From: Hydrogenobacter sp. T-2
Lineage (GTDB): Bacteria; Aquificota; Aquificia; Aquificales; Aquificaceae
Reading direction: 5' to 3'
Assembly: GCF_033971325.1 (NCBI RefSeq)
Contig: NZ_CP117180.1
Coordinates: 316,041 to 380,040, forward strand
Length of the DNA stretch: 64,000 nucleotides
The translations under genes and the position numbers were made by a program. The notes beneath the pieces are model-generated. The model ran no database searches. It was not told the DNA's origin and saw only the letters and a program-made list of their open reading frames with translations. Shown piece by piece: positions 4,288 through 64,000 of the stretch. Each line of letters starts with the position of its first letter. The stretch's first letter is position 1.

Positions 4288-4310
4288 ATTAAAGATTTTA
4301 AACTATTAGC
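4288..4310. promoter_or_regulatory. Divergent leaderless promoter pair lptB / rhomboid
   Basis: The whole gap between the two start codons is 23 bp. On the minus strand TAAAAT (4300-4295) ends 7 nt before the lptB GTG. On the plus strand TAAACT (4299-4304) ends 6 nt before the rhomboid ATG. The two -10 hexamers overlap by two bases, and neither gene has room for a Shine-Dalgarno sequence. Confidence 0.5.
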
Positions 4311-6718: not shown

Positions 6719-7348
6719 TCAGGGGCGGGTTATCCCTGCCCGCCTTTTCAGGGCCTCATAGTCCTTAATAAATATCCTTCCTCTACAGACCTCTATAAGT
6801 CCATCCCTTTCAATGTCCTTTAGGACCCTACTTACCACTACCCTAACACTTCCCACATCTTTGGCAATATCTTCATGGGTCTTTTCAATAAACCCTCTTC
6901 CTTTAGCCTCTGAAAGCAGGTAATGTATAAGCCTTTCTTCTACCCTGTTTGATACCATTGAGTTGATTATCTCCATTACAGAAAGAAGGTTTTCTGAGAG
7001 GACCTTCATAAAAAGGCTTCTCCACCAGTGATTTTCTTCAAACCATCTGAGGGCTATTTCTTTAGGTACCATGAAAATAACGGAATCTTCTTCAGCTCTT
7101 GTGTAGGCTGGATATTCCCTCTTGGAGTAAACCGTAATCATAGCAAGCATGCACATCTGACCGGGCATCACCCTATAGAGGGTTAGCTCCCTGCCTGAGT
7201 TTGATATAAGGTAAACCCTTAGCTCACCCTCCTTCACAAAAGGAACTGCAGAGCATAGACTACCTTCAGAAAAAAGCAAAGACCCTTTATTAACTCTCTG
7301 AGGTGGAAACATGCCCTCCAAAAGCTTTTTTGTTTCTTCTATCCACAT
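6719..7348 (-). CDS. Crp/Fnr family transcriptional regulator
   Basis: This is a 209-residue regulator with an N-terminal cyclic-nucleotide-binding-like beta-roll (about 15-110), a dimerisation helix (about 112-140) and a C-terminal winged helix-turn-helix (about 156-195). The recognition helix SVRVVVSRVLKDIE keeps the Ser-Arg pair of the family but has valine where Fnr has glutamate, so its DNA site need not be the Fnr box. The cysteines (32, 66, 188) do not form the N-terminal iron-sulfur cluster motif of Fnr. The start chosen is ATG 7348, because the longer reading frame would run into the divergent ridA gene and because TATATT lies 8 nt upstream. It may regulate the cytochrome P460 gene on its 3' side (inference). 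Confidence 0.85.
   Translation of the reverse strand: MWIEETKKLLEGMFPPQRVNKGSLLFSEGSLCSAVPFVKEGELRVYLISNSGRELTLYRVMPGQMCMLAMITVYSKREYPAYTRAEEDSVIFMVPKEIALRWFEENHWWRSLFMKVLSENLLSVMEIINSMVSNRVEERLIHYLLSEAKGRGFIEKTHEDIAKDVGSVRVVVSRVLKDIERDGLIEVCRGRIFIKDYEALKRRAGITRP
6724..6748. terminator. Rho-independent terminator after cytochrome P460
   Basis: GGCGGG (6724-6729) pairs with CCCGCC (6739-6744), with a 9-nt loop and then TTTT. It terminates the cytochrome transcript, and its sequence doubles as the last codons of the convergent Crp/Fnr gene. Confidence 0.7.
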
Positions 7349-7366
7349 TGACTTAAAATATAAAAC
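7349..7366. promoter_or_regulatory. Divergent leaderless promoter pair crp-like / ridA
   Basis: The 18-bp gap holds TAAAAT (7354-7359, plus strand, 7 nt before the ridA ATG) and TATATT (7362-7357, minus strand, 8 nt before the regulator ATG). The two hexamers overlap by three bases. There is no room for Shine-Dalgarno sequences. Confidence 0.5.
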
Positions 7367-10016: not shown

Positions 10017-10037
10017 TGATATAATATATATACCTTA

Positions 10038-10109
10038 GCGGGCGTAGCTCAGTGGTGGAGCGGCTGCTTGCCATGCAGCAGGTCGCGGGTTCGAGTCCCG
10101 TCGCCCGCT
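10038..10109 (+). tRNA. tRNA-Gly (anticodon GCC)
   Basis: The cloverleaf folds with acceptor stem GCGGGCG/CGCCCGC, D arm GCTC/GAGC, anticodon stem GCTGC/GCAGC around loop TTGCCAT (anticodon GCC), and T arm GCGGG-TTCGAGT-CCCGT. The discriminator is T. CCA is not encoded. A TATAAT at 10020-10025 is the likely promoter. Confidence 0.96.
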
Positions 10110-10113
10110 TTTA

Positions 10114-11948: not shown

Positions 11949-12032
11949 TGCCGGAGGCGGGAGTCGAACCCGCACGCCCTCACGGGCACTGCCCCCTCAA
12001 GACAGCGCGTCTGCCAGTTCCGCCACTCCGGC
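11949..12032 (-). tRNA. tRNA-Leu (anticodon GAG)
   Basis: This is a class II tRNA with acceptor GCCGGAG/CTCCGGC, anticodon stem CTGTC/GGCAG around loop TTGAGGG (anticodon GAG), a long variable arm (TGCCCGTGAGGGCGT) and T arm GCGGG-TTCGACT-CCCGC. The discriminator is A. CCA is not encoded. It reads CUC and CUU codons. Confidence 0.95.
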
Positions 12033-12040
12033 TTAGGAGT

Positions 12041-12049
12041 TATATTATA
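12041..12049. promoter_or_regulatory. Divergent promoter core, tRNA-Leu / thiE
   Basis: TATATT (12041-12046) ends 7 nt before the thiE ATG on the plus strand. TATAAT (12049-12044) on the minus strand lies 11 nt before the tRNA-Leu 5' end, the right distance for a short tRNA leader. The two hexamers overlap by three bases. Confidence 0.5.
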
Positions 12050-12053
12050 CACC

Positions 12054-26425: not shown

Positions 26426-27005
26426 GTGCCTCTTGTCTTTCCTTGCATTTTTCACATACTCCACAGGGGATTATCTTACCCATAGATTTCTTTGGTCTAA
26501 TGCAAGAAAGGGTCTTATCAAGAGGCACACCTTCTGAAAATCCTCTTATTACTTCGTGTTTTTCCATTCCCATAAAGGGCGTTAAAAGTTCTACGTTTAT
26601 AAGAGATTGCAAGCGTTTCATATAGTCCGCGTTGTTGTCAGGAAAGGGATATATGCCCAAACTGCCTATGGCTACGCATTTTATTCCTTTTAGCAATGCA
26701 TAGTTTCCCGCCATAGCAACAAGGTTTATGTTTCTGAGAGGAATAAAAAGGTTCTTATCATGCTTTCTATCCTTTACCCTTTCTGGATTTAACGTGGTTA
26801 AAACTCTTAGTGGCATTAGGTTTTTGTATTTTTTCTTCGTATAGAGCCACAGACCTTTTGCCCTTTCAAATTCAAGGCTTTCCCAAGGATATCCTGCCTT
26901 TACATAAACAGGATAAACGAGCCAACCCTTTTTTAAATACATGTATAGCATGCATGTGCTTTCCACACCTCCACTAAAGAGCACCACTACCTTATGAACA
27001 TTCAC
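26406..27005 (-). CDS. QueC-like ATP-pyrophosphatase (7-deazaguanine biosynthesis family)
   Basis: This is a 199-residue PP-loop protein. The P-loop reads SGGVEST (about 11-17), where QueC normally has Asp in place of Glu. It also has the QueC-type motif [17 protein letters not shown] and a C-terminal zinc-like set (Cys of LSCIRPKK, then CGVCEKC, about 165-190). QueC makes preQ0 for queuosine; this protein is shorter than typical QueC and divergent, so it may act on a related substrate. It overlaps the SDR gene upstream by 14 nt, so the two are coupled. Confidence 0.7.
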
Positions 27006-27723
27006 CTGATATATGCCTCCCGCTGTCTAACATAATAATTTCTCCTGTCATGCTTTCCACTTCGAGAAGGAGTTCTGTAAGTTTAACTACATCTTTTATA
27101 GATACAGTTCTCTTAAGAGGTGTTTTGTTTACATACTCTTGCCACTTTTCTTCAGAAAAGTCTGGAGGTTTTACAGTAGGACCAAGAGCTATGGCGTTTA
27201 CAAGCACATGAGGTGCAAACTCCTTGGCAAGCACCTTTACCGCTGTGTGCAAAGCACCCTTTGCTAAAAAGTAAGCCGAGTAGTTTCTATAGGGTGTAGT
27301 GTTTGTAGCCCAATCGCCAAAAGCAATTATTCTACCCTTTGTTCTACCTTCGTTTTTAAGCATATAAGGAAAGACCTCTTTGCACATTACTACAAAGGCT
27401 TGAGCTATGGGTTTAAAGTGATAGTCCAAGTCTTCTTCTCTTAGGCTCTCAATAGGCGTAGGCTCATAGGGGCTTGAGAGATGCAAAAGGGCATCAACAC
27501 CACCGAGCAACTGCACAAGTTCTCTTGTTGAACCTTCCGCTTCCTGCCAAAGGCTTAAGTCCGCTCTAACTCCATAAACTCTATCTCCAAAGGATTCTCT
27601 CAACTCTTTGTAGACATGCTCAGAGCCCTTATAGACAAGACCTACACTCCAACCCTTTTCAAGAAGACTTTTAGCTATTTCATAACCTATCCTTCTCACA
27701 CCTGTTATTATGGCTCTCTTCAT
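26992..27723 (-). CDS. SDR oxidoreductase, pteridine-reductase (FolM/PTR1)-like
   Basis: This is a 243-residue Rossmann short-chain dehydrogenase. The nucleotide motif is TGVRRIGYEIA (about 6-16), with the Arg-Arg-x-Gly typical of FolM and PTR1, which reduce pterins with NADPH. The catalytic Tyr and Lys are in YSAYFLAKGAL. The start ATG 27723 lies 7 nt from a TATAAT, which favours it over a start 14 codons upstream. It forms an operon with the QueC-like gene, and both protein families handle GTP-derived pterin/deazapurine compounds. The reaction itself is inferred from family only. Confidence 0.75.
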   Translation of the reverse strand: MKRAIITGVRRIGYEIAKSLLEKGWSVGLVYKGSEHVYKELRESFGDRVYGVRADLSLWQEAEGSTRELVQLLGGVDALLHLSSPYEPTPIESLREEDLDYHFKPIAQAFVVMCKEVFPYMLKNEGRTKGRIIAFGDWATNTTPYRNYSAYFLAKGALHTAVKVLAKEFAPHVLVNAIALGPTVKPPDFSEEKWQEYVNKTPLKRTVSIKDVVKLTELLLEVESMTGEIIMLDSGRHISGECS

Positions 27724-27739
27724 GGCTATAATTATATGC
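27724..27739. promoter_or_regulatory. Symmetric divergent leaderless promoter SDR / bioD
   Basis: The 16-bp gap is built around the perfect palindrome TATAATTATA (27727-27736). Read on the plus strand, TATAAT ends 7 nt before the bioD GTG (27740). Read on the minus strand, TATAAT ends 7 nt before the SDR ATG (27723). The geometry is exactly symmetric. Confidence 0.6.
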
Positions 27740-28393
27740 GTGAGGAGTGTTCTTATAACTGCCACAGATACTGGTGTTGGTAAAACCTTTATTAGCTATA
27801 ACTTAGTTTACGCCCTCAAAGAGAGAGGCATAAGGGTTGGCTATTTAAAGCCCGTTGAAACAGACGTCAAGGAAGTTCCTGCTGACGGTAGCCTCTTAGC
27901 TTCTCTCACAGGTCAGAGCCTTGAAGAAGCAGTCCCAGTAAGATACAAACTTCCTCTCTCTCCCTATGCTGGAATTTTGGAGGAAGGAAAGGACTTTTCC
28001 CTTGATGCCTTGAGAGAGCGTTATGAAAAACTTTTAGAAAAGTATGAGTTCCTTGTGGTAGAAGGTGCAGGTGGTGTTGCAGTGCCTATAAAAAGAAGCT
28101 ACGATTATGCAAAACTCGCAAAGGACTGGGGATTAAAGACCATACTTGTTGCAAGGGCAGGTCTTGGGACGATAAACCACAGCTTTCTAAGTTGGTATTA
28201 CATGAAGTCTATGGGCGTAGAGCCTTTTGTGATAATTATGAATGGCTTTGAAGGTAAGGACATCTCCGAGAGGACAAACCCAAATATAGTGGAGGAGTTA
28301 ACGGGTGTAAAGGTTATAAAAATTCCAAAAATACAGGAGCTTTTGCTACCTGCGGAATACAGGTCTTTACTTGCTGAGCTTGTCGGGTTCTAA
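27740..28393 (+). CDS. bioD: ATP-dependent dethiobiotin synthetase BioD
   Basis: BioD closes the ureido ring of dethiobiotin from 7,8-diaminopelargonate, CO2 and ATP. It has the P-loop TATDTGVGKTF (about 7-17), the lysine-bearing LKPVETDV, and VEGAGGVAVPI. The length of 217 from GTG 27740 is normal. This start puts the conserved RSVLITATDTG at the N terminus and lies 7 nt from the divergent -10; ATG codons further upstream would run into the SDR promoter and start. Its last 27 nt overlap the convergent PBP gene. No other biotin gene is near. Confidence 0.92.
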   Translation: MRSVLITATDTGVGKTFISYNLVYALKERGIRVGYLKPVETDVKEVPADGSLLASLTGQSLEEAVPVRYKLPLSPYAGILEEGKDFSLDALRERYEKLLEKYEFLVVEGAGGVAVPIKRSYDYAKLAKDWGLKTILVARAGLGTINHSFLSWYYMKSMGVEPFVIIMNGFEGKDISERTNPNIVEELTGVKVIKIPKIQELLLPAEYRSLLAELVGF

Positions 28394-31152: not shown

Positions 31153-31242
31153 CGGAGAGGGCGGGATTCGAACCCGCGGTAGGGCTGTTAACCCTACAAC
31201 TCCTTAGCAGGGAGCCGCCTTCGGCCTCTCGGCCACCTCTCC
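31153..31242 (-). tRNA. tRNA-Ser (anticodon GCT)
   Basis: This is a class II tRNA with acceptor GGAGAGG/CCTCTCC, anticodon loop CTGCTAA (GCT, for AGC/AGU), a long variable arm (TGTAGGGTTAACAGCCCTA) and T arm GCGGG-TTCGAAT-CCCGC. The discriminator is G, as for Ser tRNAs. A TATACT lies 11 nt upstream of the 5' end on the minus strand. Confidence 0.95.
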
Positions 31243-41763: not shown

Positions 41764-41780
41764 CCCTTATAATTTTATGC
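41764..41780. promoter_or_regulatory. Divergent leaderless promoter pair MNT / pdhA
   Basis: The gap is 17 bp. TATAAT (41768-41773) ends 7 nt before the pdhA ATG, and TAAAAT (41777-41772, minus strand) ends 8 nt before the MNT ATG. The two hexamers overlap by two bases. Confidence 0.55.
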
Positions 41781-52856: not shown

Positions 52857-53287
52857 GCTTCAACCTCCAATGTTTTGGGTTGTTGGGCTATGTGAGGATG
52901 TTCAGAGCCTCTGTAAACCTTTAGCCTCTTTAGCATTCTGTGCCCCAGCCTGTTTTTTGGAAGCATCCTCTTTACCGCAAGCCTTATTACCTCCTCTGGC
53001 TTATTCTCAAGCATCCAAGCAAGAGTTCTTTCCTTTAGACCGCCAGGATAATTGCTATGGAAGTAGTATTTCTTCTGCTCTAACTTTTTGCCAGTGGCAA
53101 CCACCTTGTCTGCATTAAGGACTATCACAAAATCTCCGCAATCCACGTCAGGCTGGTAATAGGGTTTGTGCTTTCCCATTAAAACCCTTGCTACTTGAGA
53201 AGCCAACCTGCCAAGGGTTTTACCTTGAGCATCTACAACCCACCAGCTTCTTACCACATCCTCTTTTCTAACATGATAAGTTTTCAT
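52853..53287 (-). CDS. rplM: 50S ribosomal protein L13
   Basis: This is a 144-residue protein that binds 23S rRNA early in 50S assembly. It has the family stretches [30 protein letters not shown]-like and [19 protein letters not shown]. It is preceded by a roughly 28-nt leader with Shine-Dalgarno AAAGGAGAAG and a minus-strand TATAAT (53327-53322), so unlike many genes here it has a conventional leader. It is co-transcribed with rpsI and argC. Confidence 0.96.
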
Positions 53288-53334
53288 CCTTCTTCTCCTT
53301 TAAGGGCTTTTAAGAAGTATAATTATAGCACAGA

Positions 53335-53757: not shown

Positions 53758-53776
53758 GGTCTATAATTATAAGATT
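53758..53776. promoter_or_regulatory. Symmetric divergent leaderless promoter, unknown gene / dksA
   Basis: The 19-bp gap contains the palindrome TATAATTATA (53762-53771). On the plus strand TATAAT (53762-53767) ends 9 nt before the dksA-like ATG. On the minus strand TATAAT (53771-53766) ends 8 nt before the ATG of the divergent gene. No Shine-Dalgarno sequence exists for either. Confidence 0.55.
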
Positions 53777-63093: not shown

Positions 63094-63116
63094 TATAATT
63101 ATACCCGAGTTCGGGT
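63094..63116. promoter_or_regulatory. Divergent promoter core with GC palindrome, mtnA / right-edge gene
   Basis: TATAAT is present on both strands (63094-63099 plus; 63103-63098 minus). Right after it ACCCGA-GT-TCGGGT (63103-63116) is a perfect 6-bp inverted repeat across the expected plus-strand start site, a possible operator. Here both genes have real leaders: about 24 nt with GGGAGG for the plus strand. Confidence 0.45.
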
Positions 63117-63129
63117 TTGAGGGAGGAAA

Positions 63130-64000
63130 ATGAAAACGCAAAGCTTAGAGGGACTGCTTCAAGGAGCTGGATTGGTTCAAAGTGTATCTCCACAGTATAA
63201 CAACATATCCTTTGAGGGTGTTCTGCTTGAGGTTTTTGATGGGATAGGCTTAGATGGACAAGTTTCTTCCGAAGGATTGGGTCAAAAGGAACATTCAGAC
63301 CTTTCAGGGGAAAACCACTACATACAAATACTTTCTGAGATATCGGGCATGATGATGGTCTCTCAGACTGGGGTTGGAGAAGCTCAAATATCCTTAGATG
63401 CTCATATATCAAATCGTGCAGATATCAAAGAAGTTCAAATAACTTCAGATACTAACATATCAAGAGATGGGGTTTTCAACACAAGTGTTTTTGAGAAGAC
63501 TTTTGGGGATGTTGAAAAACAGCTTAATTATATAGAGACTTTGGGAAATCCAAAGAAAGGCAGTATACAGATTGATGGCCTCAGATACTACCAGGAACCT
63601 ACCAGTGGTTTAGAGGCAGGTTTACCAGCAGATGTATCTCAAGAACATGAAAGACCTATGACTCAAGAGTTGTATGGTTATGTGGAGATGTTAAGAAGTG
63701 AAAAGGACACGGAGCAGAGGTATGATGCTATTTCAAAACCTCAAGAGCAAGTTAAAAAAGCGTCATCCGAAGAACCTTTTGTTGGAAAAGAATTGTCTTC
63801 TTTTGTTTCCACCCAGTCTGAAGAATATACGCACGGAAATGTTCATGTAAAAACTTTTGACCAATCCAGAATGTTTTATGGAGAGATAAGACAGGGCAAC
63901 AATGTGAAGTTTGAAAAAGATAGGGTCCAAGAGAATAAATCCTTAAGAGAAGCAGTTTTTGAAACAAACCCAGATTATACAAATTTTGAAGAGCCTCAAG
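63130..64000 (+). CDS. Unidentified Gln/Ser/Glu-rich protein, FliK-like region possible (3' end beyond window)
   Basis: The frame opens at ATG 63130, after GGGAGG, and stays open for 290 codons to the window end. The sequence starts KTQSLEGLLQGAGLVQ and is low-complexity, rich in Ser, Gln, Glu and Asp, with short repeats of the type (A/N)-(D/N)-I-S. No globular domain is recognised; such extended N-terminal regions are typical of flagellar hook-length control protein FliK, and PilZ proteins are near. This is a guess, since the diagnostic C terminus is outside the window. Confidence 0.45.
   Translation, partial: MKTQSLEGLLQGAGLVQSVSPQYNNISFEGVLLEVFDGIGLDGQVSSEGLGQKEHSDLSGENHYIQILSEISGMMMVSQTGVGEAQISLDAHISNRADIKEVQITSDTNISRDGVFNTSVFEKTFGDVEKQLNYIETLGNPKKGSIQIDGLRYYQEPTSGLEAGLPADVSQEHERPMTQELYGYVEMLRSEKDTEQRYDAISKPQEQVKKASSEEPFVGKELSSFVSTQSEEYTHGNVHVKTFDQSRMFYGEIRQGNNVKFEKDRVQENKSLREAVFETNPDYTNFEEPQ

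Follow-up and report, generated by a model that had tools for sequence, protein, structure and literature searches.

Bidirectional promoters that arise from the symmetry of the -10 element have been described by Warman, Grainger and colleagues (PMC10268837, PMC12825309), and in Escherichia coli their divergent start sites lie most often 18 bp apart, as well as 10 and 23 bp apart (PMC12825309). Leaderless genes with a TANNNT hexamer ~12 bp upstream were predicted by Zheng et al. (2011) in two of five Aquificae genomes, at 20.7-32.4% of genes (PMC3160421). In Mycobacterium tuberculosis, Cortes et al. (2013) mapped both genes of the divergent pair prpD/Rv1129c as leaderless, and called closely juxtaposed divergent promoters common (PMC3898074). 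Bidirectional -10 elements and leaderless genes in Aquificae are each known singly from the first two of these lines of work; no description of the two together, as a recurrent and conserved genome-wide layout, was found in the open-licence papers searched. Here we describe a probable layout of this kind in Hydrogenobacter sp. T-2 (family Aquificaceae), whose genome is complete (1,692,950 bp, 43% G+C, with intergenic DNA richer in AT), starting from a 64,000-nt stretch of it (NZ_CP117180.1, positions 316,041 to 380,040; the window) and from the 16-bp gap between two divergent genes at 27724-27739.

An earlier reading of the window, referred to below as the original prediction, had proposed that short divergent gaps of this kind hold a single symmetric -10 element serving two leaderless genes at once. 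The evidence presented here indicates that such a gap is probably a bidirectional promoter of the Warman type, with predicted start sites at both start codons and with both mRNAs leaderless.

Results

The reference gap and its flanking genes comprise the following features:

27724-27739: divergent gap of 16 bp, sequence GGCTATAATTATATGC, between an SDR gene (minus strand) and bioD (plus strand)
27727-27736: perfect palindrome TATAATTATA; hexamer-to-start distance 7 nt on both sides (GTG at 27740, ATG at 27723)
26992-27723, minus strand: SDR-family gene, start ATG at 27723, predicted leaderless, Pfam adh_short_C2 (1e-26)
27740-28393, plus strand: bioD-like gene, start GTG at 27740, predicted leaderless, Pfam AAA_26 (3.6e-39) from residue 2

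In relatives, the same codon position at the bioD start is occupied by GTG or ATG.

The prevalence of this layout was examined in a sample of 864 kb (51% of the genome) taken in 20-kb stretches, with whole-genome pattern searches in addition. The first 20 stretches were partly picked to contain palindromes, and the analysis was repeated for three relatives, on 400 kb of each sampled at even spacing. Genes were called with a purpose-written caller based on coding potential only, which ignores upstream motifs. None of the 115 divergent gaps in the sample measured 0-12 bp, and 26 measured 13-24 bp (hereafter short gaps), the commonest length being 16-17 bp, which places the first coding bases of both genes 17-18 bp apart. 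A TAnnnT hexamer was found 5-9 nt before 85% of the starts flanking short gaps, with a peak at 7-8 nt, and it was present on both sides in 16 of the 26, whereas 2000 shuffles gave 2.3 on average and never more than 8. Shine-Dalgarno (SD)-like motifs precede 4% of the short-gap starts, compared to 61% of operon-internal genes. With two-sided spacing beyond every shuffle and SD motifs nearly absent, a single symmetric -10 for two leaderless genes remains the best reading, as first proposed, and the start codons, 14-25 bp apart in short gaps, would be the start sites themselves.

Two relatives gave similar results, with two-sided hexamers in 8 of 12 short gaps in genome G011 and 7 of 9 in G003, both above all shuffles. 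We take G003 to be Aquifex aeolicus, and another relative, G030, to be Hydrogenobacter thermophilus. The predicted layout of divergent genes with a shared -10 is marked within the genus but less so in the family as a whole. No divergent gap of 13-24 bp was detected in small samples from Thermus pTT27 (22 gaps), Deinococcus MP1 (14 gaps) or, using the same caller, 200 kb of E. coli K-12 (26 gaps); the E. coli annotation contains one near case, relB/ydfV, with a gap of 24 bp. As a separate observation, ahead of operon-internal starts TAnnnT is about twice as frequent at a distance of 6-7 nt as at adjacent distances, which hints at internal leaderless promoters or at start-calling effects.

The two-sided spacing depends on the start codons, and start calling is imperfect. 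If starts were misassigned, or if the real promoters lay inside the opposite gene with antisense leaders, which are possible, the mRNAs would be leadered and the cores in the gaps incidental. One gap of the sample may illustrate this: at genome position 659588 (L024:4588-4601), a 14-bp divergent gap appears leaderless on one side and is possibly a mixed case, as the plus-strand gene has an alternative ATG 12 nt downstream, preceded by GGGGGA, and may have a very short leader. Against a general misassignment, SD-like motifs almost vanish, relatives keep the start positions, and genes in long divergent gaps show the hexamer peak at 6-8 nt as well. The cleanest case is the glmS/trmFO pair (genome position 480656). 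GlmS needs a cysteine directly after Met1, and its start is fixed by this requirement. The 17 bp between the two ATGs, GCCTAAAATTATAAGCT, contain TAAAAT 8 nt before trmFO and, on the opposite strand, TATAAT 7 nt before glmS, and the gap measures 17-19 bp in 8 of 14 genomes. We therefore regard misassigned starts or promoters within the opposite gene as an unlikely source of the layout.

Given the AT-rich intergenic DNA of this genome, symmetric AT-only cores might also arise by chance, but the counts refute this. The window contains four copies of TATAATTATA against 0.10 expected from dinucleotide shuffles. Genome-wide there are 18, compared to 2 for a reversed control string and to 4.7 expected from a fourth-order Markov model (orders 0 to 4 expect 2.0-5.6), and the sampled intergenic DNA contains 16 against 0.87 expected (third-order model). 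None of the other AT-only 10-mer palindromes exceeded 5 copies in half the genome, and two-sided spacing surpassed all 2000 shuffles in this genome (G000), in G011 and in G003, so that chance can practically be dismissed.

The original prediction had been staked on the palindrome not being equally frequent inside genes, and 16 of the 18 copies are indeed outside genes, against an intergenic share of 10% in the genome. Its association of the palindrome with short divergent gaps stands in part: the palindrome recurs there, but only 4 of the 18 copies are located in protein/protein divergent gaps of ≤33 bp, others being at single promoters, in tRNA/gene pairs and in longer divergent gaps. Specificity for divergent gaps was ruled out by the several copies at single promoters, some of which have a TTGACA-like element at 16-17 bp. 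Within the family, enrichment of TATAATTATA is lineage-specific: it is seen in several genera, strongly in that of the window (g1), that of H. thermophilus (g7) and g10, and is absent in g4 (Aquifex) and g6, although the short gaps of Aquifex nonetheless have two-sided hexamers.

Perfect 10-bp palindromes are typical of operators, and the core could in principle bind a dimeric transcription factor without being a promoter core. This is very improbable, as each half is the consensus -10, correctly spaced relative to a start, degenerate forms such as TAAAATTATA and TATAATTTTA occupy the same place, and the element is present before unrelated housekeeping genes and tRNAs.

The need for T-12, A-11 and T-7 in each of two opposed hexamers limits the overlaps that can occur. 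Among leaderless promoters, the two-base overlap TAnAATTnTA was found at 31 of the 71 in short divergent gaps and at 20 of the 215 that have a codirectional neighbour (p 1e-9), an excess that is in part due to geometry, given two leaderless genes and a short gap. In longer divergent gaps the frequency of this symmetric register (13/58 and 15/82) is still about twice the codirectional value. Registers 2 and 7 were dropped as evidence; they are common before every gene class because of the pseudo-symmetry of the -10.

Comparison of the upstream regions of five loci (bioD, pdhA, trmFO, the dksA-like gene and metG) in relatives revealed that gap length and core are largely kept, despite diverged proteins, where the same divergent neighbour is kept. 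The bioD gap, with its core, is 16-17 bp long in 8 genus relatives and 20 bp in G043; the dksA-like gene keeps its core and a gap of 19-20 bp in relatives with a close divergent neighbour; the metG gap is 19 bp where the neighbour is kept; and the core of the gap at 41764-41780 is likewise retained. Where the neighbour is lost or distant, the forward -10 often remains, while the overlapping reverse half is often lost. A reverse -10 was found in 31 of 33 orthologues with a close divergent gene and in 11 of 34 without (p = 1e-7, an optimistic value because the copies are related by descent). A symmetric -10 shared by two genes fits the relatives too, with spacing conserved and the reverse half kept mainly beside a close divergent gene.

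The ready turnover of neighbours, with the forward -10 staying in place, is also what would be expected from passive compaction, in which ordinary leaderless promoters are pushed together by genome streamlining and the genes are not functionally coupled. This explanation predicts an identical anatomy, and differs only in denying the sharing a role. The genomes are small and 90% coding, the overlap is forced when both genes are leaderless and the gap is 16-17 bp, and the paired genes look functionally unrelated (for example glmS/trmFO and metG/lipoprotein). It accounts less readily for the accumulation of gap lengths at 13-24 bp, for the retained spacing of the same pairs, and for the twofold frequency of the symmetric register even in longer divergent gaps. 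Because both predict the same anatomy, compaction and functional sharing are inseparable by sequence alone, and we consider the odds of passive compaction to be even.

Several points qualify or weigh against a bidirectional promoter shared by two leaderless genes. Overlapping -10 elements are a geometric consequence of two leaderless starts separated by ~17 bp, and the notable fact is therefore the frequency of such gaps. The palindrome TATAATTATA occurs at one-directional promoters too, and the dksA-like gene of G049 retains it without a recognised divergent gene. G030 has few short gaps, and its two-sided count (3/4) is within the shuffle range. The orthologue counts are phylogenetically non-independent, and some starts, among them those around 27740 and at 7348/7367, are placed wrongly by our home-made caller. 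A TTGACA-like -35 with a spacer of 16-18 bp was not detectable in short-gap promoters (13 vs 11 at control spacing), in contrast to long-gap leaderless promoters (30 vs 12) and leadered promoters (31 vs 7); in a short gap, this element would sit in the first codons of the opposite gene. The claim is therefore one of -10-dependent promoters, and not of full -35/-10 promoters.

Other gaps, palindrome copies and example tRNA genes in the window are as follows:

53758-53776: divergent gap of 19 bp, DUF1122 gene (minus strand) / dksA-like gene (plus strand); palindrome at 53762-53771; spacers 8 and 9 nt
41764-41780: divergent gap of 17 bp, nucleotidyltransferase (minus strand) / E1 dehydrogenase alpha (plus strand); core TATAATTTTA in the same register; spacers 8 and 7 nt
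4288-4310: divergent gap of 23 bp, ABC-transporter ATPase (minus strand) / rhomboid (plus strand); spacers 7 and 6 nt
7349-7366: divergent gap of 18 bp, Crp/FNR-like regulator (minus strand) / RidA family (plus strand); TAAAAT 7 nt before the ridA start
12033-12053: gap of 21 bp, tRNA-Leu (minus strand) / thiE (plus strand); core TATATTATA, 7 nt to the thiE ATG and 11 nt to the tRNA 5' end
63094-63103: palindrome copy between mtnA (minus strand, leader ~40 nt) and the gene at 63130 (plus strand, SD GGGAGG, GGGAGGAAAATG); core shared by leadered genes
53318-53327, minus strand: palindrome copy separating two genes that both lie on the minus strand, ~30 nt upstream of the start at 53287, outside the divergent layout
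10037-10110: tRNA gene
11949-12032: tRNA gene
31153-31242: tRNA gene

All of the short divergent gaps named in the original prediction are present, with correct sequence and coordinates. The perfect palindrome is found in two of them as described (27724-27739, with spacing of exactly 7/7 nt, and 53758-53776), and the core beside the tRNA in the tRNA-Leu/thiE gap and the palindrome with longer leaders at mtnA/63130 were likewise recovered. The gap at 4288-4310 uses another register, in which TAAAAT (minus strand) and TAAACT (plus strand) overlap at the TA of ATTTTAAACT. Inspection by eye gives TATATT or TATTTT on the minus strand of 7349-7366, 8 or 6 nt from the start of the Crp-like gene; for this gap (7348/7367), the starts are those of the original prediction together with Pfam, the coding-potential caller having put them elsewhere.

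In the window and the sampled stretches, a TATAAT hexamer, exact or nearly so, precedes the mature 5' end of most tRNA genes by 9-14 nt, most commonly by 11 nt. This position implies pre-tRNA leaders of a few nucleotides, and supports the hexamer as the functional -10. In several tRNA/gene gaps the core is common to both. Aquificaceae are without RNase P RNA and use the protein-only enzyme HARP instead (PMC4227106), and the short pre-tRNA leaders may be related to this.

Discussion

We propose that each short divergent gap, mostly of 16-17 bp, would act as one bidirectional housekeeping promoter of the sigma-70/SigA type. Two -10 hexamers overlap on opposite strands, and in the clearest form share the central AT of TAnAATTnTA. 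RNA polymerase, presumably as the SigA holoenzyme, would engage the element in either orientation, one at a time, and would initiate ~7 nt beyond the hexamer, in either direction at the first base of the start codon or immediately beside it. Both mRNAs would be leaderless and translated from a 5'-terminal start codon.

A broader and more tentative proposal, which we hold to be somewhat doubtful, is that up to about a quarter of the divergent pairs in some Aquificaceae genera run from one symmetric -10, with start codons as start sites. The start codon and first codons of each gene would double as the upstream region of the opposite promoter (in a 17-bp gap, the T of CAT is at -18 of that promoter), gap length would be set by the allowed -10 overlaps, and polymerases excluding one another from the core would couple the pair, while the gap would leave no space for a 5' untranslated region (UTR).

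If the start sites are as predicted, ~17 bp would drive two mRNAs without UTR, SD or detectable -35, near the smallest interval possible. The gaps would form a natural, sequence-defined set of bidirectional promoters with both products coding, with which coupling of gene pairs by polymerase competition, and the tolerance of coding sequence for the opposite promoter's upstream region, could be tested. It would also be a warning for annotation, since start calls that rely on SD sequences can be wrong in such gaps.

In comparison with known systems, the gaps resemble Warman-type promoters in having one pseudo-symmetric -10 predicted to serve both orientations, with overlapping opposite-strand hexamers (16 of 26 short gaps, 2.3 in shuffles) and with start codons 17-18 bp apart, near the 18 bp of those promoters. 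They differ in that both products are coding and the predicted start sites coincide with the start codons, and in their clearest register, a two-base overlap, whereas 18 bp in E. coli implies a five-base overlap. The genes resemble the leaderless genes of Zheng et al. (2011) in the hexamer and its distance to the start codon, with a -10 ~12 bp upstream (TAnnnT at 85% of starts) and an SD-like motif at 4%; in that work genes are treated singly, and the word 'divergent' is absent from the main text (PMC3160421). Finally, unlike in M. tuberculosis prpD/Rv1129c, where 120 bp separate the start sites (1254630 and 1254510) and the -10 is not shared, the two predicted start sites here would be served by a single -10 core.
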